A DNA stretch of 37,319 nucleotides from a virus: IMG/VR virus record IMGVR_UViG_3300042560_002246, positions 1-37,319 of that record, one strand, 5' to 3'. Under the pieces are notes generated by a model. The model saw only the letters and a list, made by a program, of their open reading frames with translations, had not been told where the DNA came from and searched no databases. Of this stretch, positions 23,946 through 36,072 are shown in pieces. Position 1 is the stretch's first letter. Each line of letters opens with the position of its first letter. The translations under genes were made by a program, and so were the position numbers.

Positions 23946-24024
23946 TGGTTTTTATAGTGGAGAGAAGTGGAGGAAAGTGGTATGGGTAACTGAGCGTATT
24001 AAACCTTAAGCTCGTAATCTTTCT

Positions 24025-24101: not shown

Positions 24102-24198
24102 TTCAAATAAAACTATCCGAAATCAAGGATAATTGGTTTGTTATTGTATCTTATATAGGGGAAATTTATTAAAAGGATTTGGTTATTTTTATAAATAC

Positions 24199-24224
24199 CT
24201 GGGAATTTTTATGCCCCATCGTAA
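24199..24224 (+). promoter_or_regulatory. bipartite element E2
   Basis: CTGGGA-N15-CGTAA, followed by TGTCTATTTAT, which is also found after E3. It lies just past the 3' end of the minus-strand gene at 24228. Confidence 0.65.
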
Positions 24225-24227
24225 TGT

Positions 24228-24443
24228 CTATTTATCTTTGTTATCTTCTGGCTTCGCCAGTATTCCAATAGCTGCCAAACCCTTGTACCACAAAAAGCGG
24301 GGGTATCCAAACCAAGCCTTGATCCTATTCTCCATAGCTATATAAGAATCAATATCTTTTTGATACTGATCACTATTCTTATACTCCTCTGTAGTAAAAT
24401 GAGGATGTATAGATTCTTTACTGAAGAAACCTCTAGGACTCAT
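24228..24443 (-). CDS. hypothetical protein, 71 residues
   Basis: The product (MSPRGFFSKESIHPHF start, Trp/Tyr-rich middle) is probably small and soluble or peripheral. TATACT on the minus strand ends 6 bases before the ATG at 24443, the usual leaderless spacing. Single CAAACC motifs fall inside it at 24276 and 24308. No family recognised. Confidence 0.6.
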   Translation of the reverse strand: MSPRGFFSKESIHPHFTTEEYKNSDQYQKDIDSYIAMENRIKAWFGYPRFLWYKGLAAIGILAKPEDNKDK

Positions 24444-24529
24444 GTATATAGTATATCAGGTATTAAGGTTTGCCTAAGTACCCCCAAACCAAATATAACG
24501 GTTTGATAACGATATAATGACAAAACTTT

Positions 24530-24556
24530 CTGGGATTTTTTTCGTTGCGTTCGTAA
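24530..24556 (+). promoter_or_regulatory. bipartite element E3
   Basis: CTGGGA-N16-CGTAA followed by TGTCTATTTATTT. Confidence 0.65.
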
Positions 24557-24607
24557 TGTCTATTTATTTAAATTTGGATATAGAGGTTTGGATCTGCGAA
24601 AAATATT

Positions 24608-24634
24608 CTGGGGTTCTTAATGTCTGGTTCGTAA
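24608..24634 (+). promoter_or_regulatory. bipartite element E4
   Basis: CTGGGG-N16-CGTAA, followed by a GGTTTG motif, CTGCGGCC and a CAGGGG/CCCCTG hairpin (24672-24697) at the end of the minus gene at 24701. Confidence 0.7.
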
Positions 24635-24700
24635 AGGTTTGGGCACTAGGGATAGATCACTGCGGCCAGACAGGGGCCACATTAAAGTGACCCCTGACTA

Positions 24701-24988
24701 TTACTTCTCGTTATTGTTTTTTGTTACAGCCAAAGTTAGAATCTGGTCTAGGTCTTCAAACCCTGTATCATTCAGACCAATGCCTGTAAGCAAGATTGAA
24801 AAACTCTCGTCAATAATTTCTCCTGCTGGGCTGTCCTCATCTATAGCAATAAGCTCTGTGTATGCACAATAAGCAAGTGGCAGACCTAAGTCATTGAACT
24901 CAACATAGTCTTCAAATTGCTCGTCATCTCTATAGTCCATCCACACATCTGCTAGAATGGCACACTTATTAGAAAAGGTAGTTTTCAT
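24701..24988 (-). CDS. acidic hypothetical protein, 95 residues
   Basis: A conserved-hypothetical type of phage protein with LADVWMDYRDDEQFEDYVE and LGLPLAYCAY. It overlaps the end of the upstream gene by 20 bases, so it is translationally coupled. A CAGGGG/CCCCTG hairpin directly after its stop probably ends transcription. Confidence 0.7.
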   Translation of the reverse strand: MKTTFSNKCAILADVWMDYRDDEQFEDYVEFNDLGLPLAYCAYTELIAIDEDSPAGEIIDESFSILLTGIGLNDTGFEDLDQILTLAVTKNNNEK

Positions 24989-25181
24989 CTTGTATCATCT
25001 CCCATTGTTCTTCTTTCTCCCACTTAGCAGCTTCCAAAATCACCATAAGTCTGTTATAGGTTATGTTGTTATCTCTACCCAAATACATACCAACTTGGTC
25101 TAAATCTAAAGTTAGGTCATTTACTAGGCTACCGATTTTGATTGCTGTTTTTTCTGCTGTGCTTTGCCTGTGTCTTGTCAT
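24969..25181 (-). CDS. hypothetical protein, 70 residues
   Basis: AGGAGA 5 bases before ATG 25181. N-terminus is basic (MTRHRQSTAEKTAIK), the C-terminus acidic and Trp-rich, probably helical. First gene of a two-gene unit from the promoter at 25197-25225. Confidence 0.65.
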   Translation of the reverse strand: MTRHRQSTAEKTAIKIGSLVNDLTLDLDQVGMYLGRDNNITYNRLMVILEAAKWEKEEQWEMIQDENYLF

Positions 25182-25196
25182 TATTCTCCTGTGCGT

Positions 25197-25225
25197 ATTG
25201 TATCAGAAATTGGGTGGGGTGTCAA
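25197..25225 (-). promoter_or_regulatory. promoter TTGACA-N17-TACAAT with inverted repeat on the -35
   Basis: Minus-strand -35 at 25225-25220 and -10 at 25202-25197. The -35 lies in one arm of the perfect repeat 25216-25253. Confidence 0.8.
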
Positions 25226-25253
25226 GGTGAAAGTAGAAAGTCCTTGACACCCC
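25216..25253. repeat. 12-bp perfect inverted repeat (operator or terminator)
   Basis: GGGGTGTCAAGG (25216-25227) and CCTTGACACCCC (25242-25253) are separated by 14 bases. Both arms contain TTGACA, so the repeat can present a -35 in each direction. Either a repressor operator or a hairpin; no U-run follows. Confidence 0.75.
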
Positions 25254-25329
25254 TTGGATACCCTGGCTACCCCTAACCAGCTGTATCCATGATGCGGAGC
25301 TAGGCTCAGACGCATCAATCTTTATTTAG

Positions 25330-25686
25330 TTAGATTACATCTTCAGCGTACTTTGGCAATTGATCGAAATACATCTTGAGTCTGTCAGACATCTTGTGCC
25401 AGTATTCCATCCTGAATCCGTCTAGGCCATACCACACGTCCTGCTCATTGCTGAAGTACTCATCCCTATTAAAACCTAGGGCCATGATTTCTTCAGCTGT
25501 TAACTTGACAGGCTCATCGAATTCCTCGTGACCATACCTGTTAACGATGTATACATGTATCTTCCAGCTGGCGGGGTCCCAATATGAATTCCCTCCCTCA
25601 TCCAGCTCTTCAGGCATGTAGATGTTAAGGTCATAGTCAATAAGAGTCTTGTTACGGTTCTTGTTACGATACATAGTTTGTGACAT
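25330..25686 (-). CDS. hypothetical protein, 118 residues
   Basis: ATG 25686 follows GAGGGGAG by about 6 bases; the longer frame to 25755 is inside the previous gene. Asp/Glu/Tyr/Trp-rich, with YWDPASWKIHVYIV and FDQLPKY. No family recognised. Last gene of a five-gene minus-strand unit that begins at 26928 or 26674. Confidence 0.65.
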   Translation of the reverse strand: MSQTMYRNKNRNKTLIDYDLNIYMPEELDEGGNSYWDPASWKIHVYIVNRYGHEEFDEPVKLTAEEIMALGFNRDEYFSNEQDVWYGLDGFRMEYWHKMSDRLKMYFDQLPKYAEDVI

Positions 25687-26056
25687 ACCCGCTCCCCTCA
25701 CAAGGCTTGCAATCTGGGTCTCCATACTCCCACCCGTCTTCGTCATAGCATTCACATTCTACCTGAACACTAAGCAGACAACTGTCCCACTCATTGTCCC
25801 ACGGTAGCTCAGTAATGTAGTAACCTAATCTATTTACATAGCTTCTGCCTGCTACGATAATATCGCATAGGTCACCTTGCACCCAAGTCCATACGAACTT
25901 TTCATCAACAGTCTTGACATAGTCATACTCTTCCCCAAAGGTTTCAAACATATGCTCATTGGGGTCTTTGCTAAACTGGTTTTTGGTAGGCTTGAACTTA
26001 TCAGCCCAGTTGCCCCAGCCTTGATACTCTACTGCTTCTACTTTCTCAATCATCAT
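25664..26056 (-). CDS. hypothetical protein with C-terminal Cys-rich motif
   Basis: The 130-residue protein ends with VECECYDEDG...DCKPCEGSGYV, a CxC...CxxCxGxG arrangement like one half of a DnaJ-type zinc centre. The first 90 residues are Trp/Asp-rich. Its ATG overlaps the stop of a 27-codon gene (TAATG). Confidence 0.65.
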   Translation of the reverse strand: MMIEKVEAVEYQGWGNWADKFKPTKNQFSKDPNEHMFETFGEEYDYVKTVDEKFVWTWVQGDLCDIIVAGRSYVNRLGYYITELPWDNEWDSCLLSVQVECECYDEDGWEYGDPDCKPCEGSGYVTNYVS

Positions 26057-26139
26057 TAGTCGTGATTCCTTACATCAAATATACCGTTTAGAAAACCACC
26101 AGCAATCAATATGAATGCCAGTATAGTTAGAAACTCCAC
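26056..26139 (-). CDS. 27-residue membrane peptide, GTG start
   Basis: GTG 26139, preceded by AGAAAGTAGG, encodes MEFLTILAFILIAGGFLNGI and a short DVRNHD tail: a single hydrophobic helix. Its TAA overlaps the ATG of the next gene. The cassette-type ribosome site and the overlap support a real gene. Confidence 0.6.
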   Translation of the reverse strand: MEFLTILAFILIAGGFLNGIFDVRNHD

Positions 26140-26152
26140 ACTTACCTACTTT

Positions 26153-26674
26153 CTAAAAGTGGAAATCCACAGGAACAAGATACCAGTTATCATCACCTTT
26201 GTCAATACTTTCACGCATGTATTTTCTGGAGGTAGCCTCATGTTCTATGTCAAAGAAATAAGACTGATAGTCCCATACCCCCATGCATAGGTCGTATAGT
26301 TTCTTGATAGGGTATAAGTCCATGCCTGCTTTGAAATGGTCAAACTCAAAGTCCTGCAGGCTGTCTAGTATCTCTGTTAGATTTATTTTACGTGCTTCTT
26401 CTTCATACGTAGACAATTCCTGCTGCCTGTATTTGTGAGCGGTATCTAGGTATTCCTCAAACTCATCGTCAGACTGGTGTCTAATATCTCCAGTCCAGTC
26501 ATCATTATATTGGTTGTCACCTGTAGCCCAACGTCCGCCACCTGTTACAAACCAGTCAAACCATGTATTGTGTGTATCTCCACTACCTAATTGGTCTTCA
26601 AGATAACTTTTGACAGAGCGATGAGCATGTGATACGTCATCTGCTTTTACTGCAATGTATTGTATTACGTGCAT
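26153..26674 (-). CDS. hypothetical protein, 173 residues
   Basis: Contains WFDWFVTGGGRWATG, a Trp/Gly motif shared by a widespread but uncharacterised group of phage proteins. Preceded by CGAAAGTAG 5 bases before the ATG. The rest is acidic with many Tyr and Asp. Function unknown. Confidence 0.7.
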   Translation of the reverse strand: MHVIQYIAVKADDVSHAHRSVKSYLEDQLGSGDTHNTWFDWFVTGGGRWATGDNQYNDDWTGDIRHQSDDEFEEYLDTAHKYRQQELSTYEEEARKINLTEILDSLQDFEFDHFKAGMDLYPIKKLYDLCMGVWDYQSYFFDIEHEATSRKYMRESIDKGDDNWYLVPVDFHF

Positions 26675-26694
26675 TTGTCTACTTTCGATTGGGG

Positions 26695-26928
26695 TTAGTT
26701 ACTAAAAACATTATAGCCTGCCATGCCTATTTTGTCAACTACATAGCTCTGGCATTGCATCCATGCAGTCTCACCAAAGAAATACTTAGGCCTGTCATTT
26801 CCAGCGGTAACTTTATAGTAATCATAATAGTTATCCGCCTCATATACCCTCACACCATTCTGATGGAAGATACCTTTCCAACATGATACGTCTGATACTT
26901 TTGGTCTTTTATTTGCATATACCTGCAT
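26695..26928 (-). CDS. hypothetical protein, 77 residues
   Basis: Small Tyr-rich protein (YEADNYYDYYKV) with FGETAWMQCQSYV near the end. First gene after the promoter at 26955-26983; CTGAAAGTAG stands 6 bases before ATG 26928. Function unknown. Confidence 0.65.
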   Translation of the reverse strand: MQVYANKRPKVSDVSCWKGIFHQNGVRVYEADNYYDYYKVTAGNDRPKYFFGETAWMQCQSYVVDKIGMAGYNVFSN

Positions 26929-26954
26929 GAATTTCTACTTTCAGTTGGGAATCA

Positions 26955-26983
26955 ATTATCTCAAAATTTGGGGGATTTGTCAA
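26955..26983 (-). promoter_or_regulatory. promoter TTGACA-N17-GATAAT
   Basis: Minus-strand -35 (26983-26978) lies inside the spacer of element E5 (26968-26994), so anything binding E5 should affect this promoter. Confidence 0.75.
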
Positions 26984-26994
26984 CAGGTTCGTAA
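26968..26994 (+). promoter_or_regulatory. bipartite element E5
   Basis: TTGGGG-N16-CGTAA; GCCGCAGC follows at 27029-27036 within a CCTGC...GCAGG stem next to a GCTC-GAAA-GAGC hairpin. Confidence 0.7.
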
Positions 26995-27054
26995 TTAATT
27001 TTTTATGTTTAATAGATTATGTTAACCTGCCGCAGCTCGAAAGAGCAGGATCCC

Positions 27055-27195
27055 CTACTCTTCCTCCAGCAAATCATACTGAACTTCTAAATCATAAGTC
27101 CAGTCTTCAACAGCCTGTTCAATAGTTGTCTCATCAGTATCAATCTCAATGATGCCTTCTTTATAGATTGATACCTGCCAAACTTGCCTAGACAT
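27055..27195 (-). CDS. acidic protein, 46 residues
   Basis: ATG 27195 to TAG 27055 encodes MSRQVWQVSIYKEGIIEI and a strongly acidic end (LLEEE). It overlaps the upstream gene by 8 bases and is the last gene of a seven-gene minus-strand run. Function unknown. Confidence 0.65.
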   Translation of the reverse strand: MSRQVWQVSIYKEGIIEIDTDETTIEQAVEDWTYDLEVQYDLLEEE

Positions 27196-27373
27196 CTAGA
27201 GCCATCTCTCTGCCGTATTCCATGATAACTTCTTCAAACTTGTCCCCCTCCAAAGCCTCATAGACTTGTTCTAGAACAGTCTCAGGAACTTCATTGGTAT
27301 CAAGAACAAACAGTGGATGTCCCTCATGGAACTGCCACCAGTCGCCATTGATGTTTGAAATAAAGATTGCCAT
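27188..27373 (-). CDS. acidic protein, 61 residues
   Basis: ATG 27373 overlaps the previous TAA (TAATG) and has GGGAGAAAG upstream, so the in-frame start at 27388 is rejected. FISNINGDWWQFHEGHPLF start, Glu-rich C-terminus. Function unknown. Confidence 0.65.
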   Translation of the reverse strand: MAIFISNINGDWWQFHEGHPLFVLDTNEVPETVLEQVYEALEGDKFEEVIMEYGREMALDV

Positions 27374-27645
27374 TATACTTTCTCCCACTTTAGTGAATCA
27401 ACATACTCTATGTATGCTGTGTGTTCCATAAACTCTACCCCACATTTTAGCAGGTATACCTGTGTTGTGTCAATACTTCCGCTAATGTAGTCCCAGTCAT
27501 CTGAAAACTCTTCTACTTCCTCTATGCTGTCATACAGGCTATAGAGGTGACTAACCATAAAATCTGTTAGTTGGTTTAGTTTAGTAAAATCATTTGTCTT
27601 AGTCACTTTAGCAGACCATACCCTATTCTGTCTCTTGATTATCAA
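27373..27645 (-). CDS. acidic protein, 90 residues
   Basis: TTG start at 27645 inside the end of the preceding gene. Glu/Asp/Tyr-rich (LYDSIEEVEEFSDDWDYI). No family recognised; member of the coupled run of small acidic proteins. Confidence 0.6.
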   Translation of the reverse strand: MIIKRQNRVWSAKVTKTNDFTKLNQLTDFMVSHLYSLYDSIEEVEEFSDDWDYISGSIDTTQVYLLKCGVEFMEHTAYIEYVDSLKWEKV

Positions 27646-27784
27646 TATGAGCTACTTCCCAAAATCCGTCTGGCAAATGTGCGTGTATCTCTTGTCCAAT
27701 ATCCATAGCTTCAGGCGAACTATCTGCCTCAACATCATACTGAGCTGTATAAGTAACAATAAACTTTTTCTTAGGATTATTCAC
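27623..27784 (-). CDS. small acidic protein, 53 residues, GTG start
   Basis: GTG 27784 overlaps the stop of the previous gene and encodes MNNPKKKFIVTYTAQYDV onward. VTYTAQYDVEADSSPEAMDI resembles the start of the protein at 28188-28388 (YVTMRVDFAGYLEADSEDEA), so the two may be paralogues. Confidence 0.6.
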   Translation of the reverse strand: MNNPKKKFIVTYTAQYDVEADSSPEAMDIGQEIHAHLPDGFWEVAHIDNQETE

Positions 27785-27929
27785 AATCAACCAATCTTTC
27801 TAATTCCTCATCAGGTATAGTATCTAGTGTAGCAAGGGCATCTGACAATATAGCAGCCATCTGCTGTTTGAACTCATCGTCCCCTGCATTAGAAATAAAC
27901 TTAGTCCATGTACTAATTGTGCTACTCAT
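27777..27929 (-). CDS. helical protein, 50 residues
   Basis: ATG 27929 overlaps the previous stop (TAATG) with GAGAGAGTAG upstream; the longer frame to 27989 is rejected. Helical, acidic C-terminus (IPDEELERLVDCE). Confidence 0.6.
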   Translation of the reverse strand: MSSTISTWTKFISNAGDDEFKQQMAAILSDALATLDTIPDEELERLVDCE

Positions 27930-28195
27930 TATGCTACTCTCTCTAGGGTGAATGGGTCTAACTCTTGGTTGAAATACATATACTGACACTCAACACAGAA
28001 ACCTAATTCTTCGTGCCAAATATCTTCCTCAACATATTCTCCACAATGTCCAAATCTATTACAGGGTAGATAACCATTAGACTCATACTCTTGGTTACCC
28101 TCACAGATACGGCAGAATGGGTTACAGTCAAAATTGCCATCATGGGCAGGGCATACTTTCATCATAGGAACAATTATAGTAGTAGGGTCAGACAT
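27929..28195 (-). CDS. Cys-rich zinc-finger-like protein, 88 residues
   Basis: Cys pairs occur in CPAHDGNFDCNPFCRIC, CNRFGHC and CVEC, enough for two or three zinc sites. ATG 28195 with GAAGAAGAAA upstream overlaps the previous gene by 8 bases. Possibly a nucleic-acid-binding or adaptor protein. Confidence 0.65.
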   Translation of the reverse strand: MSDPTTIIVPMMKVCPAHDGNFDCNPFCRICEGNQEYESNGYLPCNRFGHCGEYVEEDIWHEELGFCVECQYMYFNQELDPFTLERVA

Positions 28196-28388
28196 TTTCT
28201 TCTTCGTCATCATCTTCCTCATCTTCCTCTACTTCTTCAACATCAATGGAATAAATACCGTCATAAGTTATGTCGTTGTCCATTGTGTCACCCCAGCTTG
28301 TCCAAGCAAGTTTCTCTGCTTCGTCTTCGCTATCAGCTTCAAGGTATCCAGCAAAATCAACACGCATTGTTACATAGTATTTGGGCAT
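28188..28388 (-). CDS. acidic-tail protein, 66 residues
   Basis: Beta-hairpin N-terminus (YYVTMRVDFAGYLEADSE) and a run of Glu/Asp at the C-terminus. AAGAAAGTAG is 3 bases before ATG 28388; first gene after the promoter at 28414-28442. A DNA-mimic or charge-tail role is possible but unsupported. Confidence 0.7.
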   Translation of the reverse strand: MPKYYVTMRVDFAGYLEADSEDEAEKLAWTSWGDTMDNDITYDGIYSIDVEEVEEDEEDDDEEENV

Positions 28389-28413
28389 AATCTACTTTCT
28401 TTAGGTTGTAATT

Positions 28414-28442
28414 ATTATAGGGTAGGGGTCAGACATTTTCAA
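28414..28442 (-). promoter_or_regulatory. promoter TTGAAA-N17-TATAAT
   Basis: Minus-strand -10 at 28419-28414 and -35 at 28442-28437; the spacer holds the shared GACATT block (plus-strand sense). Confidence 0.75.
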
Positions 28443-28446
28443 TAAT

Positions 28447-28473
28447 TCGGGCGATTTTGTTATAGGTTCGTAA
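28447..28473 (+). promoter_or_regulatory. bipartite element E6
   Basis: TCGGGC-N16-CGTAA (first half diverged); GCCGCAGC follows at 28507-28514. Confidence 0.65.
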
Positions 28474-28546
28474 TTGTATTTTTTTGTTTAACAATATGAT
28501 TATTGATGCCGCAGCCGATTTCGATCCGCTTGTCAAGTATGAATGG

Positions 28547-28573
28547 AGGGCAGTTTATACTCATGCCCAGGAG
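28547..28573 (-). ncRNA. H-type pseudoknot 1 in 3' UTR
   Basis: On the minus strand, ACTC pairs with GAGT and GGGC with GCCC in interleaved order, with a CT first loop and ATAAACT last loop. It follows the stop of the DUF932 gene by 8 bases. Copies at 29770-29796 and 31493-31520 change both stems in a compensatory way. Confidence 0.7.
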
Positions 28574-28580
28574 TTTTGTT

Positions 28581-29582
28581 TTAGCTGTTAGCCAAAACTA
28601 GGTTCATCAACCTATTCTTTTCAGCAGTTGTTACAGGGTCAAAACCTGAAGCAGCAGCTAGGATACTTTCGTTAGAACCACCTCTGGCAGTTCGATACCA
28701 GTCTAGTCTTTCTGTTAGAGCATTGAAAGCACCCCAAGCAGTTCCAGCAATCATAGAGTTAGTGTCACCAACATAGATAGACTGAAGAATGTCTGTTTTG
28801 TTTTCCCACTTTTTGACAGCACCCTTAGTGTCTTTGTCTGGCTTTGGATACGCTAGCTCAACAATCTTGTCAAACTGAGCTTTGGTAATTTCTGTTTCAA
28901 TCATCTTGCTAGCTAGCTTGTCAAACTCATCAAGATACTGGTTAGCAAGACCAAGAGCCTCACGAGCCTGAGCAACCTTACCTGAAGCTGTAGCAGTGTG
29001 TCTGATTTTGAATGTTTGCTTTACGCCTCTGTTAACCTTGCCAAGAGCTAGGTTTAGAGTGTTAGCACATACAACACGAACAGGTGTGATACTAGCCTGA
29101 ATTGCTACTGAACCGTCATGACTTGTGTTGATTAGCAAATAAGACTTTACAACATCAGACACGCCGTTAGGGTCAAGCACAACATCACGCTCAAGAGCAA
29201 GAGAACCAAAAACCTGTCTGCCGTTCTTGATAGAACCAGCAGTCTCCCAGCGTCCCCCGTCAAGCAGGGCATCACCAAAATCAAAAAGGTCTTCGTTCTG
29301 CAAAACATTGTAACGCTCACCAACAACACCAAGAACATCATTCTGTTCTGAGTTGAATGGGTTAGTTCTAGTTACAAAGAAATAGTTCTTGTCACTAGAG
29401 AAACCATTAGGGATAGATACATCTTCCAAGCGGACATCCCAACGGTCTAGGTGAGCAAGTGCCAACATCTCGCTTGTTGTTACTTCCTCATTGAACACAG
29501 TTCCAAGCTGGTGCCAAGCTGGCTCCCTGAAGGAAGCAAAAGCGGTTTCGCCTGTTGCTGATTGTTCTAGTAAATGGGCCAT
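28581..29582 (-). CDS. DUF932 / phage-plasmid-like protein (TIGR03299 type)
   Basis: The 333-residue protein has the family layout: N-terminal FREPAWHQLG, FFVTRTNPF, VLGVVGERYNVLQNEDLFDF, the Asn/Thr-rich LLINTSHDGSVAI and VRVVCANTLNLAL. The family is common in phages and plasmids, with no firm function (a single-strand-binding or recombination role has been suggested). It is the largest gene in the 24-35 kb region. AAGAAAGTAGG 5 bases before ATG. Confidence 0.9.
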   Translation of the reverse strand: MAHLLEQSATGETAFASFREPAWHQLGTVFNEEVTTSEMLALAHLDRWDVRLEDVSIPNGFSSDKNYFFVTRTNPFNSEQNDVLGVVGERYNVLQNEDLFDFGDALLDGGRWETAGSIKNGRQVFGSLALERDVVLDPNGVSDVVKSYLLINTSHDGSVAIQASITPVRVVCANTLNLALGKVNRGVKQTFKIRHTATASGKVAQAREALGLANQYLDEFDKLASKMIETEITKAQFDKIVELAYPKPDKDTKGAVKKWENKTDILQSIYVGDTNSMIAGTAWGAFNALTERLDWYRTARGGSNESILAAASGFDPVTTAEKNRLMNLVLANS

Positions 29583-29614
29583 AGTTTCCTACTTTCTTAT
29601 TGTTTGATGAGTCT

Positions 29615-29643
29615 ATTTTACATTGGGGGTCTGACATTGTCAA
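29615..29643 (-). promoter_or_regulatory. promoter TTGACA-N17-TAAAAT
   Basis: Minus-strand -35 at 29643-29638, -10 at 29620-29615. Element E7 begins 4 bases beyond the -35. Confidence 0.8.
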
Positions 29644-29647
29644 GAAT

Positions 29648-29674
29648 CTGGGGCAAATTTATTTGTCTTCGTAA
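29648..29674 (+). promoter_or_regulatory. bipartite element E7
   Basis: CTGGGG-N16-CGTAA; GGGC-CGCA-GCCC hairpin at 29701-29712 contains the GCCGCAGC core. Confidence 0.7.
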
Positions 29675-29769
29675 ATGAATTATTATAACAATTCGGTAAC
29701 GGGCCGCAGCCCAAGATCCAGGCATAAGAAATCCCCCTGCTACTTACCACAATGGAATTCACAGGGGGC

Positions 29770-29796
29770 GAGCAGTTTATACACTTGCTCAGGTGT
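29770..29796 (-). ncRNA. H-type pseudoknot 2 in 3' UTR
   Basis: Minus strand: ACAC pairs with GTGT, GAGC with GCTC, loops CT, AA and ATAAACT. It follows the stop of the gene at 29808 by 11 bases. Confidence 0.7.
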
Positions 29797-29807
29797 TCCC
29801 CTAAAGT

Positions 29808-30254
29808 TTAGAGGAGTTCCATTACGGAGTTGTAAGTGGAAGCATTTACTTCCTCTTGGTTTGTCATCTTGAGAACCTTGAGGTTTTTCTTGAGCAAGTC
29901 CAACTTGGTAGTGTAGTCACGCCCATAGTAAGACTGCTGGTTTGGTCTGCTTGGCTCTTCTGGCTTCTTTGGGAAACCTAGTGCCTCAGCATCAAACTCA
30001 ACGCTAACGCCATTCTGATAACGGCTGTATGAAACAGAAACTAGACTATTGCTTTCTGTTCCAATGTTGTCTGGGTTGTTTAGTGCCTTGATAGCGTGAG
30101 AGATTATGTCTCTCTGCCATTGTTTTAGGTCAGCCTCATACTGCTTACGCTTGTCAGCATACTGCTCAATGTCTGCCTCTAGTTTAGCAATCTGAGTTTC
30201 TACCTCAGCAATTAGTGAAGCGGTTGGGATTTTTACTGCTAGTGATTTTGCCAT
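29808..30254 (-). CDS. coiled-coil protein, 148 residues
   Basis: Residues 12-50 form a strong coiled coil (LIAEVETQIAKLEADIEQYA) and a second charged helix follows a Pro-rich middle (KKPEEPSRPNQQ). TAGAAAGTAG stands 3 bases before the ATG. It comes from its own TATAAT box (30288-30283, minus). Function unknown; it neighbours DUF932, as small recombination or scaffold helpers might. Confidence 0.7.
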   Translation of the reverse strand: MAKSLAVKIPTASLIAEVETQIAKLEADIEQYADKRKQYEADLKQWQRDIISHAIKALNNPDNIGTESNSLVSVSYSRYQNGVSVEFDAEALGFPKKPEEPSRPNQQSYYGRDYTTKLDLLKKNLKVLKMTNQEEVNASTYNSVMELL

Positions 30255-30311
30255 TTTCTACTTTCTATTTGGGGTTGTTATTATTATACATAGGGGGTGA
30301 GACATTTTAGG

Positions 30312-30427
30312 TAAGAACTAGGGGAAAGCGTTCTGTTCGGTTATCTCTACTAAAGGCTTTCATTATGGATAACAAACCTAGTTCTTATTGAGGGGGTAGT
30401 GAAAGGATAATAACCCTACCCCCTCAA
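30312..30427 (-). other. nested hairpin structure between cassettes
   Basis: TAAGAACTAGG (30312-30322) pairs over 11 bp with 30377-30387, enclosing GTTATC/GATAAC (30340-30345 with 30368-30373). Next to it, a 12-bp perfect stem (30388-30399 with 30416-30427) lies 6 bases after the stop of the gene at 30434. No U-run, so a processed or protective 3' structure is as likely as a terminator. Confidence 0.65.
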
Positions 30428-30433
30428 ACTAGA

Positions 30434-30586
30434 TTACTTGATAGTAGTCCAGCGTGGGTTGCCATTTACATCAAGACGGACACGGAACGAGCCACTTGGG
30501 TTAGCCACAACTTCCTGAACAACGCCAGTTACGCCAGACTTAGCGGTGGTGAATTGTGAGCCAACAATCGGTGCTGATACAGCCAT
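30434..30586 (-). CDS. small beta-barrel (KOW/SH3-like) protein, 50 residues
   Basis: ATG 30586 with AAGGAAG 5 bases upstream. MAVSAPIVGSQFTTAKSG, then VTGVVQEVVANPSGSFRVRL and a WTTIK end is a conserved phage small-protein pattern that looks like a five-strand SH3/KOW fold. Its long leader (about 70 bases) includes a CCTAAC-TCT-GTTAGG hairpin at 30601-30615. Confidence 0.75.
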   Translation of the reverse strand: MAVSAPIVGSQFTTAKSGVTGVVQEVVANPSGSFRVRLDVNGNPRWTTIK

Positions 30587-30657
30587 TTTGCTTCCTTACA
30601 CCTAACAGAGTTAGGATTTATTTAGTTTATGTTTGTAGTCATCTTTGCTACCCCTAA

Positions 30658-30686
30658 ATTATACAGCAGGGGACAGACATTATCAA
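30658..30686 (-). promoter_or_regulatory. promoter TTGATA-N17-TATAAT
   Basis: Minus-strand -35 at 30686-30681 and -10 at 30663-30658, driving the KOW-like gene. Confidence 0.75.
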
Positions 30687-30717
30687 GTGCCACGCCAAAG
30701 ATTTTTTATACAAATTT

Positions 30718-30744
30718 TTGGGGGATTTTTTGTAGGTTTCGTAA
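30718..30744 (+). promoter_or_regulatory. bipartite element E8
   Basis: TTGGGG-N16-CGTAA; GCCGCAGC at 30768-30775 and a strong hairpin plus U-run at 30782-30818 follow, which would end a plus-strand RNA of about 65-70 bases. Confidence 0.75.
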
Positions 30745-30781
30745 ATTGACAAATAGACCAAAGGCGGGCCGCAGCACAAAA

Positions 30782-30818
30782 CCACCAGGATGTCAAGTCC
30801 TGGTGGCTCTGTTTTTTT
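30782..30818. terminator. bidirectional terminator
   Basis: CCACCAGGA (30782-30790) pairs with TCCTGGTGG (30798-30806). Plus-strand side is followed by CTCTGTTTTTTT; the minus-strand side is followed by TTTTGTGC. It can stop the minus gene at 30822 and anything transcribed from E8. Confidence 0.9.
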
Positions 30819-30821
30819 ATT

Positions 30822-31376
30822 TTACACTAACGCTTCTTGTTTGAACTTTGCGTGATAGTCCTCTACCTTCATTGCTTTGACTTCATCAAAGGTTAGTGTT
30901 ACAACAAATTCCCATTCACCAGTCTTGGAGTCTCTTCCCCACTTGCTAGTGAATGTTTGCTTATCTAAATCAACAACATAAACAGCCTCACAGAATAAAG
31001 CGTCACTCTCAAACTCTTTATCAAGACTGATAGGAATTTTTGGTGATTTGTCATAGTTAGCAATTACTCTGATAATTTCAGCACAGGTATTGCGTGTTAG
31101 TGTTGGCAATGCCTCTTCTAGCTTATCACCACTACCTATGGTCATAAATCCTGGACTAGAGCCATCCATAAATGGAGCAAACAAAGCCTCTAGCTCAGTT
31201 TCTGTGGGGTAGTAAATTCTTGGAATGTTGTTTATAAACTTCTCTATAGTTCCATCTTCTTGCAGGGTATAAAACATAGTTGTTCCCTGCCCCTCTGGAT
31301 AACCATCCCATTGTCCATACTGGCTAACAATTGTTTCGCCCTCATAGATTACATTGGTCAGATTACGTGTTCCCAT
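30822..31376 (-). CDS. hypothetical protein of the TRNLT...QYGQWDGYP type
   Basis: MGTRNLTNVIYEGETIVSQYGQWDGYPEGQG is the hallmark opening of an uncharacterised family found in several phages and bacteria. The rest is mixed alpha/beta with few charged clusters. GAAAGGTAA precedes the ATG; TATAGT (31408-31403, minus) is its -10 box. Function unknown. Confidence 0.8.
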   Translation of the reverse strand: MGTRNLTNVIYEGETIVSQYGQWDGYPEGQGTTMFYTLQEDGTIEKFINNIPRIYYPTETELEALFAPFMDGSSPGFMTIGSGDKLEEALPTLTRNTCAEIIRVIANYDKSPKIPISLDKEFESDALFCEAVYVVDLDKQTFTSKWGRDSKTGEWEFVVTLTFDEVKAMKVEDYHAKFKQEALV

Positions 31377-31426
31377 TAGTTACCTTTCGTTTTGTTAGTA
31401 TTACTATACAGGATGGGTCAGACATT

Positions 31427-31453
31427 TTGGGGGCGTGTCGTAAACAATCGTAA
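31427..31453 (+). promoter_or_regulatory. bipartite element E9
   Basis: TTGGGG-N16-CGTAA, directly after the GACATT block of the minus-strand promoter; a GGCGTGTC motif (31432-31439) overlaps it, and the core appears inverted (GCTGCGG, 31478-31484). Confidence 0.7.
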
Positions 31454-31492
31454 ACCGTTACGGATCTGTTACATTTGGCTGCGGTCGGAGGT

Positions 31493-31520
31493 GGCCAGTT
31501 TAACGTCATGGCCAGGACGT
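31493..31520 (-). ncRNA. H-type pseudoknot 3 in 3' UTR
   Basis: Minus strand: ACGTC pairs with GACGT, GGCC with GGCC, loops CT, AT and TAAACT. It lies about 58 bases after the stop of the GP88-like gene. Confidence 0.7.
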
Positions 31521-31577
31521 GGGACCTAAGAAAGGAATAAGAAGGTCCCTATATTACATGCCCCTATGCATGCAAGT

Positions 31578-32297
31578 TTATTTTTTACTAGCACTAAACA
31601 AAATGTCATTACGTGCAAACACACACTGCCCACAGGTTACACAGGCAGAACCTTTTTCACTAATCAGTGGAAGTTTCTTTGCGTTTTCAGGGCAGGGAAT
31701 AGCAGACTTAGGCGTGATAGTCAACATCCGCTCTTTACCCATTGCAAAATTGTTAGCAAGATAAGCTAGCTTGACACCGTTAGTTTCTTTGAGTTGACTT
31801 GCCAGCTGCCAGTTGTCATCATCCGTTGAAAAGTACAGTGATAGATTCTCAATACCCGTTAGAATTGGCACTGCAAAATCAGACCTAGTGTATACCCAGA
31901 ACTGAATTGCAGGGAATGCAAGAATTACATTTTTCCAGGCGTGAGTATAAGTTTCATTGAAAAAGTCACCGTCCCAGTGAATACGAAACAGTTTCTCTGC
32001 ATTACGCTTGACACAGTCTTTGTCAAACTCGTCAACCATTTCATAGAGTAAAGCTTCCATTTCCAGTTGGTCCGCATTGCGTAGCAGGTCCCAATTGTTT
32101 AGAAGAACATCCTTTACGCCTTTGTAGATTTTCTCAAGCTTGCCCGCATAGCAGACTTTCTCGCATACGCTTGTTGCTCCAGGGCAGGAATAACTCTTCC
32201 CAGAAGGAAGGCCAAAAGTGTTCGAGATAGTTGCTGTTTTACCGTTGGGCGATACTGCATTAGTTACCTTTCTGTCTTTGCTTCGAATTAGGGGCAT
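31578..32297 (-). CDS. GP88-family protein
   Basis: SCPGATSVCEKVCYAG near residue 38 and CPENAKK...CVTCGQC near the C-terminus are the Cys clusters of mycobacteriophage GP88-like proteins, probably a metal or iron-sulfur site. LFRIHWDGDFFNETYTHAW and FWVYTRS match the conserved core. Function is not established. GAAAGGAAAGC before the ATG at 32297; TATAAT on the minus strand near 32310-32305. Confidence 0.85.
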   Translation of the reverse strand: MPLIRSKDRKVTNAVSPNGKTATISNTFGLPSGKSYSCPGATSVCEKVCYAGKLEKIYKGVKDVLLNNWDLLRNADQLEMEALLYEMVDEFDKDCVKRNAEKLFRIHWDGDFFNETYTHAWKNVILAFPAIQFWVYTRSDFAVPILTGIENLSLYFSTDDDNWQLASQLKETNGVKLAYLANNFAMGKERMLTITPKSAIPCPENAKKLPLISEKGSACVTCGQCVFARNDILFSASKK

Positions 32298-32343
32298 TGC
32301 TTTCCTTTCAACTGAATCTATTATAATCTAGGCCTAGGACATT

Positions 32344-32370
32344 TTGGGGGAAATCTTAAACTCTTCGTAA
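32344..32370 (+). promoter_or_regulatory. bipartite element E10
   Basis: TTGGGG-N16-CGTAA, directly after GACATT; GCCGCAGC at 32396-32403 and a CCCGTT/AACGGG hairpin follow. Confidence 0.75.
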
Positions 32371-32407
32371 ATTGTTACCATCCTGTTACGATCTGGCCGC
32401 AGCCCGT

Positions 32408-32557
32408 TTAGAACGGGACAGCAAACAATTCTTCTTCACCAATCAAAACTTCATAGCAAGTTTCACACTCAACAAAATACTCAGGCTCAACAATTCCGTC
32501 TGTGTATTTAGCAATTACTATGTCGTGTCCAAAATGTTCAGCAAACTTATTCATCAT
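32408..32557 (-). CDS. acidic protein with CxxC, 49 residues
   Basis: ATGATG at 32557/32554 overlaps the end of the previous gene by 11 bases. VECETCYEVLIGEEELF has one CxxC. The stop codon lies inside a CCCGTT...AACGGG hairpin (32403-32417), so terminator and gene end are shared. Confidence 0.6.
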   Translation of the reverse strand: MMNKFAEHFGHDIVIAKYTDGIVEPEYFVECETCYEVLIGEEELFAVPF

Positions 32558-32810
32558 AGCTAATCCAAGGGTCTAGGTGGTGTTGATTTGAAATGTCCCA
32601 AGCAGGAGCAGTTGTTTGTCCTTTATAGGTTACCCCTTCAGGTAGCTCAATCTCACGATAGTAGTCACCTTCATTCATAGCGTCAATAGCTTCCATACAT
32701 ACTCTAACCATAGACTTAGGAACAGGGGGGTAGTGATTAGATAGCAAGTGCCAAGTCAAGCCTGTTTCCAAATCACCTTCAGCAAACTCTAATGCTTGTA
32801 AGTGTCCCAT
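32547..32810 (-). CDS. hypothetical protein, 87 residues
   Basis: LTWHLLSNHYPPVPKSMVRVC is a recognisable conserved-hypothetical segment of actinobacterial phage proteins. The ATG overlaps the previous stop (TAATG) and AGAAAGG precedes it. Function unknown. Confidence 0.7.
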   Translation of the reverse strand: MGHLQALEFAEGDLETGLTWHLLSNHYPPVPKSMVRVCMEAIDAMNEGDYYREIELPEGVTYKGQTTAPAWDISNQHHLDPWISYDE

Positions 32811-32938
32811 TACTTTACCTTTCTTGTTGAGGGGTGTCCAACTCTAATAGCATAGCACCTAGCACAGACATTTATGGTCTGAAACGCCAATAGGTGTCTA
32901 GTTAGTTTATTACAATCAAAGCAGTTGTATTTACTCAT
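32810..32938 (-). CDS. zinc-ribbon microprotein, 42 residues
   Basis: ATG 32938 to TAA 32810: CFDC and CARC pairs 18 residues apart in a basic 42-residue protein. It starts inside the end of the previous gene. Likely a stand-alone zinc ribbon. Confidence 0.65.
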   Translation of the reverse strand: MSKYNCFDCNKLTRHLLAFQTINVCARCYAIRVGHPSTRKVK

Positions 32939-33095
32939 TACCCTTGCTTTCTTTGATAGCCTTAGCCTTGTTAGACTGACGGCTGCCTTTGTATTTTTGA
33001 GGGGTAGAAACTAGGTGAGGCGACTTCAGCAGGTCACGGAACAATACTCTACTTTCAGCCCTGCGTCTGGCTTCGTTCGCTTTTCCTAGTTTCAT
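32931..33095 (-). CDS. basic protein, 54 residues
   Basis: MKLGKANEARRRAESRV and KYKGSRQSNKAKAIKESK make it very basic; nucleic-acid or ribosome binding is likely. TATAAT (33107-33102, minus) is 6 bases before ATG 33095: a leaderless first gene of a four-gene unit. Confidence 0.65.
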   Translation of the reverse strand: MKLGKANEARRRAESRVLFRDLLKSPHLVSTPQKYKGSRQSNKAKAIKESKGNE

Positions 33096-33137
33096 AAGAT
33101 GATTATACATCTTGCGTCTGACATTTTGGGAAAATTT

Positions 33138-33164
33138 CTGGGCGTGTCATAATTCGCTTCGTAA
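33138..33164 (+). promoter_or_regulatory. bipartite element E11
   Basis: CTGGGC-N16-CGTAA with a GGCGTGTC motif overlapping its first half; a GGGCCGC/GCGGCCC hairpin follows at 33180-33200. Confidence 0.7.
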
Positions 33165-33208
33165 ATGATTGGATCCTGGGGCCGCTGCCAGCTGCGGCCC
33201 GCCGTTCG

Positions 33209-33319
33209 TTAGAACGGGGTCTTGTGAAAATTTTTCTTGTAGTATCTGCTTGTCAAAAAAATTGTTAGTGAAACTAAAATTACATCAACTAACAAATTGA
33301 ACCCGTTGTAAAAAATCAT
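33209..33319 (-). CDS. 36-residue membrane peptide
   Basis: ATG 33319 with AGAAAGCGAG upstream encodes MIFYNGFNLLVDVILVSLTI and a basic tail. The TAA sits in the loop of a CCGTTC...GAACGG hairpin, as in the gene ending at 32408. Confidence 0.6.
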   Translation of the reverse strand: MIFYNGFNLLVDVILVSLTIFLTSRYYKKNFHKTPF

Positions 33320-33321
33320 TC

Positions 33322-33426
33322 TCACTCGCTTTCTGGTGTTGTGAATAGTGTAGCAACATCTTCTGACAACATCAAGTCAATTTTGAAAATTAGTTCTTCA
33401 AGTTCTGCTACTGATAGTTTGCTCAC
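33322..33426 (-). CDS. 34-residue acidic peptide, GTG start
   Basis: GTG 33426 overlaps the TGA of the upstream gene. MSKLSVAELEELIFKIDL and an acidic end suggest one amphipathic helix. Its final codons double as the ribosome site of the next gene. Confidence 0.55.
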   Translation of the reverse strand: MSKLSVAELEELIFKIDLMLSEDVATLFTTPESE

Positions 33427-33569
33427 TTTACTAACCCCAATCTGATTTGCTCAATACCATACTTTAGCACAGCGTATTCCATTTCTGTTAGGACACGCCC
33501 TAGAGTTGTTTCAGCATTAGCAACAATTTTTTCTAGTGTCTCATTTGCTACTATTCTTGTTTGTTCCAT
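33423..33569 (-). CDS. helical protein, 48 residues
   Basis: ATG 33569 follows GAAAGGATAAAAA. Helical (TRIVANETLEKIVANAETTL). First gene of the three-gene unit 33569-33209. Function unknown. Confidence 0.6.
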   Translation of the reverse strand: MEQTRIVANETLEKIVANAETTLGRVLTEMEYAVLKYGIEQIRLGLVK

Positions 33570-33616
33570 TTTTTATCCTTTCGATTATTTAGATACTAAC
33601 ATAGGGGTAAGACATT

Positions 33617-33778
33617 TTAGAGCAGGTGGTAGTTTGGCTGGCGGTATTCCTCTGGAAAATCCTCACCAAGATAACCCTCTGCATCTTTTAGTGGCATTAG
33701 ACCTTTATAGTCATCACACTCATAGCATACATAGTCATTGACTAGTGTCATACAGAACACACAGATTTTTTCTTCCAT
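33617..33778 (-). CDS. zinc-ribbon protein, 53 residues
   Basis: CVFC and CYEC pairs, 12 residues apart, then an acidic, Tyr-rich tail. ATG 33778 follows GAAGGGAAATAAA. Its TAA is followed at once by the promoter block of the next cassette. Confidence 0.65.
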   Translation of the reverse strand: MEEKICVFCMTLVNDYVCYECDDYKGLMPLKDAEGYLGEDFPEEYRQPNYHLL

Positions 33779-33828
33779 TTTATTTCCCTTCGTTTGATAG
33801 TTTTACATTAGCATACAGGACTGACATT

Positions 33829-33999
33829 TTACCTGCCAAAATCCTTGATTTGAGGAAACTTAGCAAGTCTTTCCTCACCAAGAGGAAACCCTGCCTTATC
33901 CCAAGCCCAAGCGATTTGGGTGGCGGTATCAAGACTAAGAGCCTCAACATCAACCCAAGCATACTCTGTGAAATACAACCATACTTTGTGAACCTTCAT
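33829..33999 (-). CDS. hypothetical protein, 56 residues
   Basis: MKVHKVWLYFTEYAWVDVEA opening, then a Trp-rich helix and GEERLAKFPQIKDFG. GAAAGGATAAATAA precedes ATG 33999. Probably a small two-layer alpha/beta protein; function unknown. Confidence 0.65.
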   Translation of the reverse strand: MKVHKVWLYFTEYAWVDVEALSLDTATQIAWAWDKAGFPLGEERLAKFPQIKDFGR

Positions 34000-34091
34000 T
34001 TATTTATCCTTTCTAACTATGATTACACTAACATAGGGGTCTGACATTTTGCAAGCGACACGCCGTCTTTGTTATCATTTTGTTATAATTT

Positions 34092-34118
34092 CTGGGGATA
34101 CTACATCTTGTGTCTTAA
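34092..34118 (+). promoter_or_regulatory. bipartite element E14 (variant)
   Basis: CTGGGG-N16-CTTAA, with CTTAA in place of CGTAA; core GCCGCAGC at 34150-34157 inside a 7-bp GC hairpin. Confidence 0.55.
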
Positions 34119-34175
34119 GATCCGATTTGACCACTACATCTAGGGGCGGGCCGCAGCCGCCCCTGGGGTGGTATG

Positions 34176-34209
34176 CCAGGTAGGCAGGGCTACCAGGTAG
34201 GTAGGGCTA
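34176..34209 (+). repeat. 17-bp tandem repeat, two copies
   Basis: CCAGGTAGG(C/T)AGGGCTA occurs at 34176-34192 and 34193-34209 with one difference. Confidence 0.85.
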
Positions 34210-34299
34210 TCTAGCAGTCACCCCTGGCGACACGCCACCACCCTCCACAAAAATGTCTGATGTCTATGCTAGATTTCTGGTGTTCGAGAAAGGAACCCT

Positions 34300-34449
34300 A
34301 TGTCCACCACCACCCCCGCCCCTGCTTTTGTCACCATTGTTGTCCCAGTTGCCTGTGACCCACACTATGTTGTTGCCCTCTATGATGACAATGACCTACT
34401 TACGTCACTTTTCTGTGAGGATTGCAATGTTGAATATTTCCCAGAATAA
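34300..34449 (+). CDS. plus-strand microprotein with CxxC, 49 residues
   Basis: ATG 34300 has GAAAGGAAC 4 bases upstream and encodes MSTTTPAPAFVTIVVPVAC and a later FCEDCNVEYFPE. Upstream, AATGTCTGA...TATGCTAGAT is the cassette promoter block in the reverse orientation. It is the only plus-strand gene among the cassettes. A longer overlapping frame (34253-34477) is rejected. Confidence 0.55.
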   Translation: MSTTTPAPAFVTIVVPVACDPHYVVALYDDNDLLTSLFCEDCNVEYFPE

Positions 34450-34450
34450 T

Positions 34451-34477
34451 CTGGGGGATTTTTTAATCTCTTCGTAA
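34451..34477 (+). promoter_or_regulatory. bipartite element E12
   Basis: CTGGGG-N16-CGTAA, starting 2 bases after the stop of the plus-strand gene; GCCGCAGC at 34509-34516. Confidence 0.75.
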
Positions 34478-34549
34478 ATTGGTGGCCCTCCCCACCCCCC
34501 CCCCTGGGGCCGCAGCACGGGGATCCGACAAAGTCAAATCCGACACGCC

Positions 34550-34573
34550 GTTATCTGATAACGATTAGATAAC
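34550..34573 (-). terminator. 7-bp hairpin after gene 34610
   Basis: GTTATCT (34550-34556) pairs with AGATAAC (34567-34573), next to a GACACGCC motif at 34542-34549. No clear U-run. Confidence 0.5.
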
Positions 34574-34609
34574 TAAGAAACCAACCTATTGCAAAAAGCA
34601 GGGTATCAA

Positions 34610-34768
34610 TTATTTGTTGTTGTTGTACCAATGCACACTCTCCACTTTATAACCAAATTTTTCTAATCTAATTATGTATTTACCTACCTGTTTATCAGGA
34701 ACATAGTTTCCAATATAGGTATCATAGTCTTTTCTCTCAACGGCTACCCAACACATTCTCCAATTCAT
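34610..34768 (-). CDS. hypothetical protein, 52 residues
   Basis: ATG 34768 overlaps the previous TGA (ATGA). MNWRMCWVAVERKDYDTYI opening, basic C-terminus with three Asn. Function unknown. Confidence 0.6.
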   Translation of the reverse strand: MNWRMCWVAVERKDYDTYIGNYVPDKQVGKYIIRLEKFGYKVESVHWYNNNK

Positions 34769-34938
34769 GCTACAGTTCCAACCTCAACAACATCACCATT
34801 ATCTAGCGTTGCTCTAAAGCCCTTGATTTCCTTCTTCCAGAACTCAGTAGTGTAGTAGCCAATTACCTCAGCTGTTTGGTCTGGGTGAAATAGTGGGTTG
34901 ATTACATGTCCGTCATTTAGAAATACCATTACGCTCAT
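34765..34938 (-). CDS. hypothetical protein, 57 residues
   Basis: ATG 34938 follows AAAAGGATAAACAA. MSVMVFLNDGHVINPLFHPD and a C-terminal RATLDNGDVVEVG hairpin; probably beta-rich. Coupled to the gene at 34610. Confidence 0.6.
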   Translation of the reverse strand: MSVMVFLNDGHVINPLFHPDQTAEVIGYYTTEFWKKEIKGFRATLDNGDVVEVGTVA

Positions 34939-35056
34939 TTGTTTATCCTTTTCTTTAGTTAGTTATACATTAGCATTGGGGTCTGACATTATTGGGATAC
35001 ACGCCGTAAATTCTTATTGTAGATAATCACAATGTTTATTGAGGAAACCTACAAAT

Positions 35057-35082
35057 CTGGGGGAATATATGTTGTATCGTAA
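35057..35082 (+). promoter_or_regulatory. bipartite element E13
   Basis: CTGGGG-N15-CGTAA; inverted core GCTGCGGC at 35107-35114 within a CCCCAC...GTGGGG stem. Confidence 0.65.
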
Positions 35083-35117
35083 ATTATTTGCCCCACTATA
35101 TGTTGGGCTGCGGCTGT

Positions 35118-35143
35118 GGGGTCTGACCTTATTGCCAGACCCC
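35118..35143 (-). terminator. GC-rich hairpin after gene 35152
   Basis: GGGGTCTG (35118-35125) pairs with CAGACCCC (35136-35143), 8 bases after the minus-strand stop. No U-run. Confidence 0.6.
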
Positions 35144-35151
35144 GCTAGAGG

Positions 35152-35241
35152 CTAGAACCTAACTGGTCTGCTAGCCTTAGCAAGAAACTTTCTCATTGAG
35201 AATACCTTTGCTACTACTGGGGTCTTTACTGTTTTGTTCAT
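35152..35241 (-). CDS. 29-residue basic peptide
   Basis: ATG 35241 follows ATAAGGATAAAAA and encodes a Lys/Arg-rich peptide (MNKTVKTPVVAKVFSMRKFL then AKASRPVRF). First cassette of the minus-strand array; its promoter has TTGACA beside a GACACGCC motif (35300-35307). Small, but leader and terminator fit. Confidence 0.55.
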   Translation of the reverse strand: MNKTVKTPVVAKVFSMRKFLAKASRPVRF

Positions 35242-35475
35242 TTTTTATCCTTATCTTTTGATACTTATACATTATTAGGTAGGTAGGACATTGTCAAGCG
35301 ACACGCCAAAGATTTTAGATAACATTTTTATAACGCAGGCCGTACGGGTGCTGGCAGTGTGCAGTCTAATTTCTTGCATTTTTTACAATAGATCCTGTAT
35401 CGTACATCTTTACAAAATATTCAGATTTTTGATATTTTTGATTTTTTAGAAAATCCGCTGTGATAAAATTGGAGA

Positions 35476-36072
35476 ATGGAAGACGGTAACCAAAAATACA
35501 CAGAGCAAATTAAAATAGTTAAAAACTTTATAACCTCTGAAGAGGCAGATTTCTATTTGCAATATATAAACAATAATGATCATTTAATGAAAAGAAGCCG
35601 TCTATGTGGAGAAGCAAGCAAGGTATTAAAATTTGGAAAGCAAACTTATGAAAAATATACAACCAATAAAAATCTTTCAATTATTAGTGATATTGAGCCT
35701 ATCGTAAGAAATAAAATTTTCCCCAAAGTGGAACAAACAATTAGGGCAATTTATGCAAACGAAAAAGATCTATTTTTATCTGATATATATTTTGCAAAAC
35801 AGTCTAGTGGTGGGTGGGTCCAGGAGCACTCTGATCAAGAAGGTGACGCTGCCTTACATGTAAAATATAGTGGCATTATTTATTTAAATGATGTGGAAAA
35901 AGGCGGGTCTTTGGTTTTTCCAAAATTAAATTATGAATATTCTCCAAAAGCTGGAGACTTAGTAACATTTCCATCTGCTGGAGATCAATATGTGCATTTT
36001 GTAACTACAGTATACGAAGATAGATATACTTTGCCTGTTTGGGTAACGGAAGACGAATTTTGGAAACTATAA
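35476..36072 (+). CDS. 2OG-Fe(II) oxygenase (prolyl-4-hydroxylase-like)
   Basis: His118 and Asp120 (EHSDQ), distal His174 (YVHFV) and Arg183 (EDRYTLPVW) form the complete iron and 2-oxoglutarate site, with GGSLVFPKLNYEYSPKAGDL as the typical beta-strand between them. 198 residues, the normal size for a phage P4H-like enzyme. TGA-TAAAAT (35461-35469) is 6 bases before ATG 35476, so the message is leaderless. It faces a methyltransferase gene that carries a dead relative of the same domain. Substrate unknown; nucleic acid, protein and small molecule are all possible. Confidence 0.85.
   Translation: MEDGNQKYTEQIKIVKNFITSEEADFYLQYINNNDHLMKRSRLCGEASKVLKFGKQTYEKYTTNKNLSIISDIEPIVRNKIFPKVEQTIRAIYANEKDLFLSDIYFAKQSSGGWVQEHSDQEGDAALHVKYSGIIYLNDVEKGGSLVFPKLNYEYSPKAGDLVTFPSAGDQYVHFVTTVYEDRYTLPVWVTEDEFWKL

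Follow-up and report, generated by a model that had tools for sequence, protein, structure and literature searches.

Both the H-type pseudoknot and the 3' stabiliser hairpin are established types of RNA element. Hairpins of the repetitive extragenic palindrome or palindromic unit type (REP/PU; bacterial interspersed mosaic elements, BIME) and the bacterial 3' stabiliser stem-loops are located after stop codons or between cistrons, where they are expected to stop 3'-to-5' decay. Frameshift pseudoknots of the beet western yellows virus (BWYV) luteovirus type and other H-type frameshift pseudoknots have a very short first loop with a C, stems of 4-5 bp and an A-rich loop in the minor groove, 5-9 nt from the A-site codon. 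The preQ1-I riboswitch (RF00522) has a similar-sized H-type fold with an A-rich last loop, and the exoribonuclease-resistant RNAs (xrRNAs) of flavivirus type are pseudoknotted viral RNAs that stop an exonuclease. The element presented here shares these traits with each of them, the spacing being comparable and the exonuclease stop being proposed. It was recognized in IMG/VR record IMGVR_UViG_3300042560_002246, positions 1 to 37,319; this whole stretch of 37,319 nt is called the window, and coordinates refer to it. We propose that the element is probably a phage-wide mRNA 3'-end module, which would act as a compact barrier to 3'-to-5' exoribonucleases and protect the upstream cistron. A phage-wide pseudoknot in such use appears to be new, and no description of the element was found by topic or by sequence in open-licence papers, subscription papers and preprints being outside the scope.

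The window contains exactly three H-type pseudoknots, all on the minus strand (Table 1). A reading made from the letters alone (the sequence-only reading) had claimed three minus-strand copies with one common frame, and all of them were recovered by reading of the strand, by a blind geometric scan and by a relaxed scanner, the latter giving no matches in the reversed or complemented window. Two of the positions given there, 29796-29770 and 31520-31493, were exact, and the third, 28573-28547, was off by one (28574-28548). The lower end of pseudoknot 3 is 31493, or 31492 with an extra U-A pair counted. The placement in 3' untranslated regions (3' UTRs) was also borne out, and two of the three upstream genes were named correctly, DUF932 and GP88 being found by Pfam; the coiled coil suggested for the third, 148-aa protein was not confirmed, since Pfam gave no matches to it. 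Across the collected loci the element consists of stem 1 (3-6 bp), a C, the first strand of stem 2 (URRGY, 4-5 bp), A(U/A), the second strand of stem 1, a last loop (N)(U/A/C)AAACU and the second strand of stem 2, with a total length of 27-29 nt. Stem 1 is free in sequence with the inner pair mostly C-G, and it is far less conserved than the loop letters (C, A, AAACU) and the URRGY bias of stem 2. By itself, TAAACT is no more frequent in the window than expected (35 occurrences versus 34.7), and significance lies only in its combination with both stems.

Pairing was examined in scans of viral sequences with parts of the pattern fixed, and the figures hold among the matches listed. Of the 122 distinct matches to a pattern that fixed the loops and stem 2, 117 had stem 1 paired over at least 3 bp and 88 over at least 4 bp, as compared to about 12 in shuffles. 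With stem 1 fixed, stem 2 was paired in 102 of 112 matches (64 in shuffles), and an independent scan with UAAGC as stem 2 gave stem 1 of at least 3 bp in 99/106 and of at least 4 bp in 77/106 (about 14 in shuffles). The two pairing-blind collection scans and the one independent replicate are thus concordant. When only the loops were required, all collected loci gave 645 matches, with both stems perfect in 322, versus 111 control matches with none fully paired. In an alignment of 45 distinct 28-mers, 97.8% of pair cells were standard and 122 cells showed double changes (shuffled mean 40.5, none of 500 shuffles as high), while the covariation score was 0.833 for this structure and at most 0.18 for slid controls. 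These rows were picked for pairing, so the pairing-blind tests carry the weight. The compensatory changes noticed earlier in both stems are hereby extended, the H-type geometry of two interleaved helices holds, and homologues, which might have failed to pair, strongly favour pairing. Some loci were fetched solely by protein similarity to DUF932 or GP88; here the motif was present 136 times on the gene strand, 9 times on the other strand, 6 times in the complemented and twice in the reversed sequences, and the loop-only matches had a strand ratio of 75:0. A DNA-level or chance repeat, for which the shortness of the loops could speak, is already refuted by this strand bias and by the fully paired matches that controls lack. 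Judged from sequence comparison, the element is confirmed as a real covarying RNA family, far above chance.

The distance from the stop codon to stem 1 is usually 4-7 nt, with a peak at 5-6 and a sharp lower limit near 4, so that stem 1 would start just outside the footprint of a ribosome terminating at the stop codon. What follows downstream is variable. Among 129 stop-proximal copies, 55 had a co-directional open reading frame (ORF) within 120 nt, 59 had one further off, and 15 faced a convergent gene; some copies precede the next Shine-Dalgarno sequence or a promoter. With its peaked stop distance and variable downstream neighbour, the pseudoknot is part of the upstream transcript and lies immediately 3' of the coding sequence, as is the case for REP-like 3' stabilisers. 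The same spacing is that of frameshift and readthrough pseudoknots from the A-site codon, and many copies are placed after a stop codon and ahead of the following Shine-Dalgarno sequence, as would be expected of a device acting on the terminating ribosome, either a stimulator of readthrough or frameshifting or an insulator keeping post-termination ribosomes from the next start. We consider such a device unlikely, because the knot falls in all three phases with respect to the stop codon (59/36/61 for 0/1/2), the stops are mainly TAA like those of background ORFs (138/45/25 versus 968/363/343), and copies occur 57 nt past the stop (GP88) or before tRNAs, hammerheads, promoters and convergent genes, without downstream translation. 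Neither a fixed phase nor a weak stop or slippery site upstream was found.

In the strict set, a tRNA gene started within 12 nt of the pseudoknot in 8 cases versus 0.10 expected. In an extended set with the last loop relaxed (632 copies versus 3 control matches), approximately 49 copies had a tRNA gene start 1-10 nt downstream; many of these are a DUF932-stop-knot-tRNA-Asp arrangement, hence kin by descent. The Nostoc phage NMeng1 shows the same adjacency as the viral loci. A 5' cut by RNase P at a tRNA gene so close by must give the messenger a new 3' end 1-10 nt past the pseudoknot. In a similar manner, 8 of the 10 hammerheads in all collected loci immediately follow a pseudoknot, their cleavage site being 5-20 nt past it; a joint pseudoknot-hammerhead pattern, matched by four viral contigs, had brought in three of these eight, and five were unselected. 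Rfam confirms the hammerheads in loci L390 and L451. Phage-like contigs with a hammerhead in this mRNA-cutting arrangement are L390 (minus strand), L377, L449, L450, L451 and L530. In L417, at 1691-1849 on the minus strand, a DUF2800 RNA (RF02960) starts at the 3' edge of the pseudoknot; this RNA might in its own right indicate a site of RNA processing. Adjacency to a site yielding a 3' end, tRNA or hammerhead, as expected for a REP-like stabiliser, concerns a subset of the copies. An intrinsic terminator or pause element could also account for the location at gene ends, and some DUF932 relatives (L049, L066, L073) have a hairpin with a T-run at the corresponding position. This explanation is nevertheless very improbable, as a T5 run is found within 20 nt in just 46 of 348 copies and the tRNA genes 1-10 nt downstream need transcription through the pseudoknot; the terminator arrangement of a GC-rich hairpin followed by a U-run is not what the element shows.

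At the 3' end of the DUF932 gene, pseudoknot and hairpin replace each other. The pseudoknot was scored in 57 of 80 DUF932 relatives, a strong hairpin (-26 to -38 kcal/mol) was found at the same place in about 21, and no relative was unstructured; L005 and L064, which were scored as having none, carry near-pseudoknots. Of the roles offered by the sequence-only reading, 3'-end protection by an exonuclease block fits the tRNA and hammerhead adjacency and the hairpin exchange, and we infer the blockage itself from these. Binding of a protein had been the other suggestion. In that case, a phage or host protein would regulate or localise the message, the bound protein serving as a barrier, and the loops and the stem 2 bias outconserving stem 1 is what one expects of a recognition surface. 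Triples between loops and grooves predict equal conservation, however, a plain hairpin substitutes at the DUF932 gene, and phages of many host phyla carry the element, which would require a very widespread protein. We hold a protein site to be as doubtful as a translational device.

The same element is present in hundreds of IMG/VR loci, a lower bound since it counts the matches listed. Its carriers are phages of Staphylococcus, Lactobacillus, Bacillus, Geobacillus, Roseobacter, Rhizobium, Nostoc and Synechococcus, as well as crAss-like phages. It is found between the minor head and scaffold genes in S. aureus Phietavirus, 3' of the ribonucleotide reductase gene in roseophages SIO1, ICBM2 and CRP-13, before the scaffold gene in Lactobacillus phig1e and 3' of the portal gene in Bacillus Page. 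Further named carriers are a Rhizobium phage, crAss-like cr7_1, Nostoc NMeng1, Melnitz, Synechococcus S-CRM01 and Geobacillus GR1; 80alpha (scanned whole) and crAss001 (nearly whole) had no copies. In Staphylococcus phage B166 (L453, 1506-1542) the pseudoknot region is annotated in the public record as a predicted promoter (BPROM P5R), and it is more likely a pseudoknot RNA element. Among 85,000 bacterial and archaeal genomes there were 53 exact matches to one variant. Stem 1 was paired in about 33; the other approximately 20, with stem 1 unpaired, look like chance matches and were set aside. Many of those with stem 1 paired adjoin genes of phage type (minor head proteins, DUF7249, a tail-type protein), on contigs labelled Lactobacillaceae, cyanobacteria, Flavobacterium, Saccharibacteria, Omnitrophica, Polynucleobacter and others. 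The upstream genes encode 221 proteins in 101 unrelated clusters, including DUF932, SSB, ArdA, HSP20, head, portal and ribonucleotide reductase proteins, and in some operons three to four successive cistrons each end in a pseudoknot (L280 four times, L463 three times). All four successive pseudoknots in L280 (12560-14540, plus strand) are followed by a repeated leader, CTCAACTCAACTTGTT or a close variant, soon before the next ATG. Covariance models of Rfam 15, at gathering and relaxed thresholds, gave no match on the pseudoknot copies searched, short pseudoknots scoring poorly in such models. This lack of matches, read with the same caution, and the placement in 3' UTRs of so many unrelated clusters with no common pathway make a small-molecule riboswitch of preQ1-I-like architecture scarcely credible, in spite of the H-type fold and a similar-sized A-rich last loop.

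Copies of the element were also found as CRISPR (clustered regularly interspaced short palindromic repeats) spacers. In Ignavibacteria Ch128a (CP054675; L586/L587, array in L586) the pseudoknot is present in 5 of the 138 distinct spacers of one array, on one strand only, and is among the commonest recurrent sequences of that array. A second recurrent hairpin (CTGTTTAGATAAAC) is found in several of its spacers. The genes beside the array belong to a Csm-type (III-A) system with Cas10, Card1-like proteins and Cas1. The end of the repeat and the side on which the cas genes lie suggest that the guide RNAs may be antisense to the pseudoknot, an orientation that would fit transcribed targets. Reverse transcriptase-associated acquisition was considered as a source of these spacers and rejected, as the Ch128a genome has no RVT_1.

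From the structure indicated by covariation and from the strand, position, neighbours and hairpin exchange we infer a stop of 3'-to-5' exoribonucleases. An RNase P cut, ribozyme cleavage or decay from the 3' side would expose the 3' end of the messenger. With the C of the first loop in the deep groove of stem 2 and the A-rich last loop in the minor groove of stem 1, the knot would be compact, and the remaining tail might be too short and too stably closed for PNPase, RNase R and similar enzymes. Decay of neighbouring cistrons would then not reach the upstream one, which would stay intact like cistrons with REP hairpins in E. coli operons. With somewhat less assurance, we think it likely that this is an RNA family specific to phages, carried by those of most bacterial phyla and not represented in Rfam, and that it is a minimal (~28 nt) 3'-to-5' exoribonuclease-resistant RNA closing the 3' ends that phages create by putting an RNase P substrate or a self-cleaving ribozyme immediately after it. 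Several observations weigh against the protective role or the family as proposed. Many copies lie between close co-directional genes with no known cut site in between, and the terminator-like hairpin 3' of pseudoknot 2 would give protection alone. Among 5,426 E. coli genomes there were no full-length matches of one variant, with only partial 19-nt matches in a coding gene, and the element seems rare in enterobacterial phages, with weak ST32-type matches only. The motif is, in addition, too short to tell common descent from convergence.

Table 1. Pseudoknots, upstream genes and adjoining hairpins in the window.
Feature	Position	Strand	Description	Source
Pseudoknot 1	28548..28574	-	Stem 1 ACTC/GAGT, loop 1 CT, stem 2 GGGC/GCCC, loop 2 AT, loop 3 ATAAACT; 3' of DUF932 gene; stop to stem 1, 6 nt	
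Pseudoknot 2	29770..29796	-	Stem 1 ACAC/GTGT, stem 2 GAGC/GCTC, loop 2 AA, loop 3 ATAAACT; 3' of 148-aa gene; stop to stem 1, 11 nt	
Pseudoknot 3	31492..31520	-	Stem 1 ACGTC/GACGT, loop 1 C, stem 2 TGGCC/GGCCA, loop 2 AT, loop 3 TAAACT; 3' of GP88 gene; stop to stem 1, 57 nt; abuts hairpin	
DUF932 protein gene	28581..29582	-	Cistron upstream of pseudoknot 1	Pfam PF06067, E=1.2e-52
148-aa protein gene	29808..30254	-	Cistron upstream of pseudoknot 2	ORF list
GP88 protein gene	31578..32297	-	Cistron upstream of pseudoknot 3	Pfam PF17338, E=5.4e-51
Hairpin GGGACC...GGTCCC	31521..31549	-	Directly 5' of pseudoknot 3	RNAfold
GC-rich hairpin CCCCCTG...CAGGGGG, then ATTTCTT	29733..29768	-	Terminator-like, directly 3' of pseudoknot 2	RNAfold and sequence

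In the first unit of the window, pseudoknot 1 is followed next by a promoter-like block. A block repeated in the minus-strand intergenic regions of 24000-35500, composed of GCTGCGGCCCG ... TTTACGAA ... CCCCCA ... AATGTCAGACCCC ... TATAAT, looks like a promoter that includes a conserved spacer element. Further along, a 374-aa ORF at 36154-37278 (minus strand) has a DNA methylase (N6_N4_Mtase) match confined to its first ~160 residues, and it is adjoined by a 2OG-Fe(II) oxygenase gene at 35476-36072 on the opposite strand.

An element of about 28 nt, reused after more than 100 unrelated genes in phages of very different hosts, would point to a general problem, the guarding of phage messages from host RNA decay, and to a portable solution. 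It suggests a reason why tRNAs and hammerheads are located directly after messenger genes, namely the cutting of a clean 3' end behind the knot. The pseudoknot may serve as a marker of mRNA 3' ends in viral metagenomes, and it could become a compact mRNA stabiliser for synthetic biology.

Compared with the described systems, the element differs from preQ1-I in lacking an Rfam match, in its 3' UTR location and in the absence of queuosine genes. Unlike BWYV-type pseudoknots, it has neither a slippery site nor a conserved phase, it lies 3' of the stop codon and it precedes non-coding elements. The xrRNAs use a ring fold against the 5'-to-3' enzyme Xrn1, which is not known from bacteria, whereas the phage element of 27-29 nt would face 3'-to-5' decay, and no ring element was seen. 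DUF2800 RNA (RF02960) and type III hammerheads share intergenic regions with the pseudoknot and follow it directly on its 3' side, yet they are separate elements. The REP/PU (BIME) hairpins and stabiliser stem-loops resemble it further in that hairpins hold the same site in relatives of the pseudoknot loci; unlike REP/PU, the phage element is a pseudoknot with conserved loops, carried by phages of many phyla and tied to tRNA and ribozyme cut sites.

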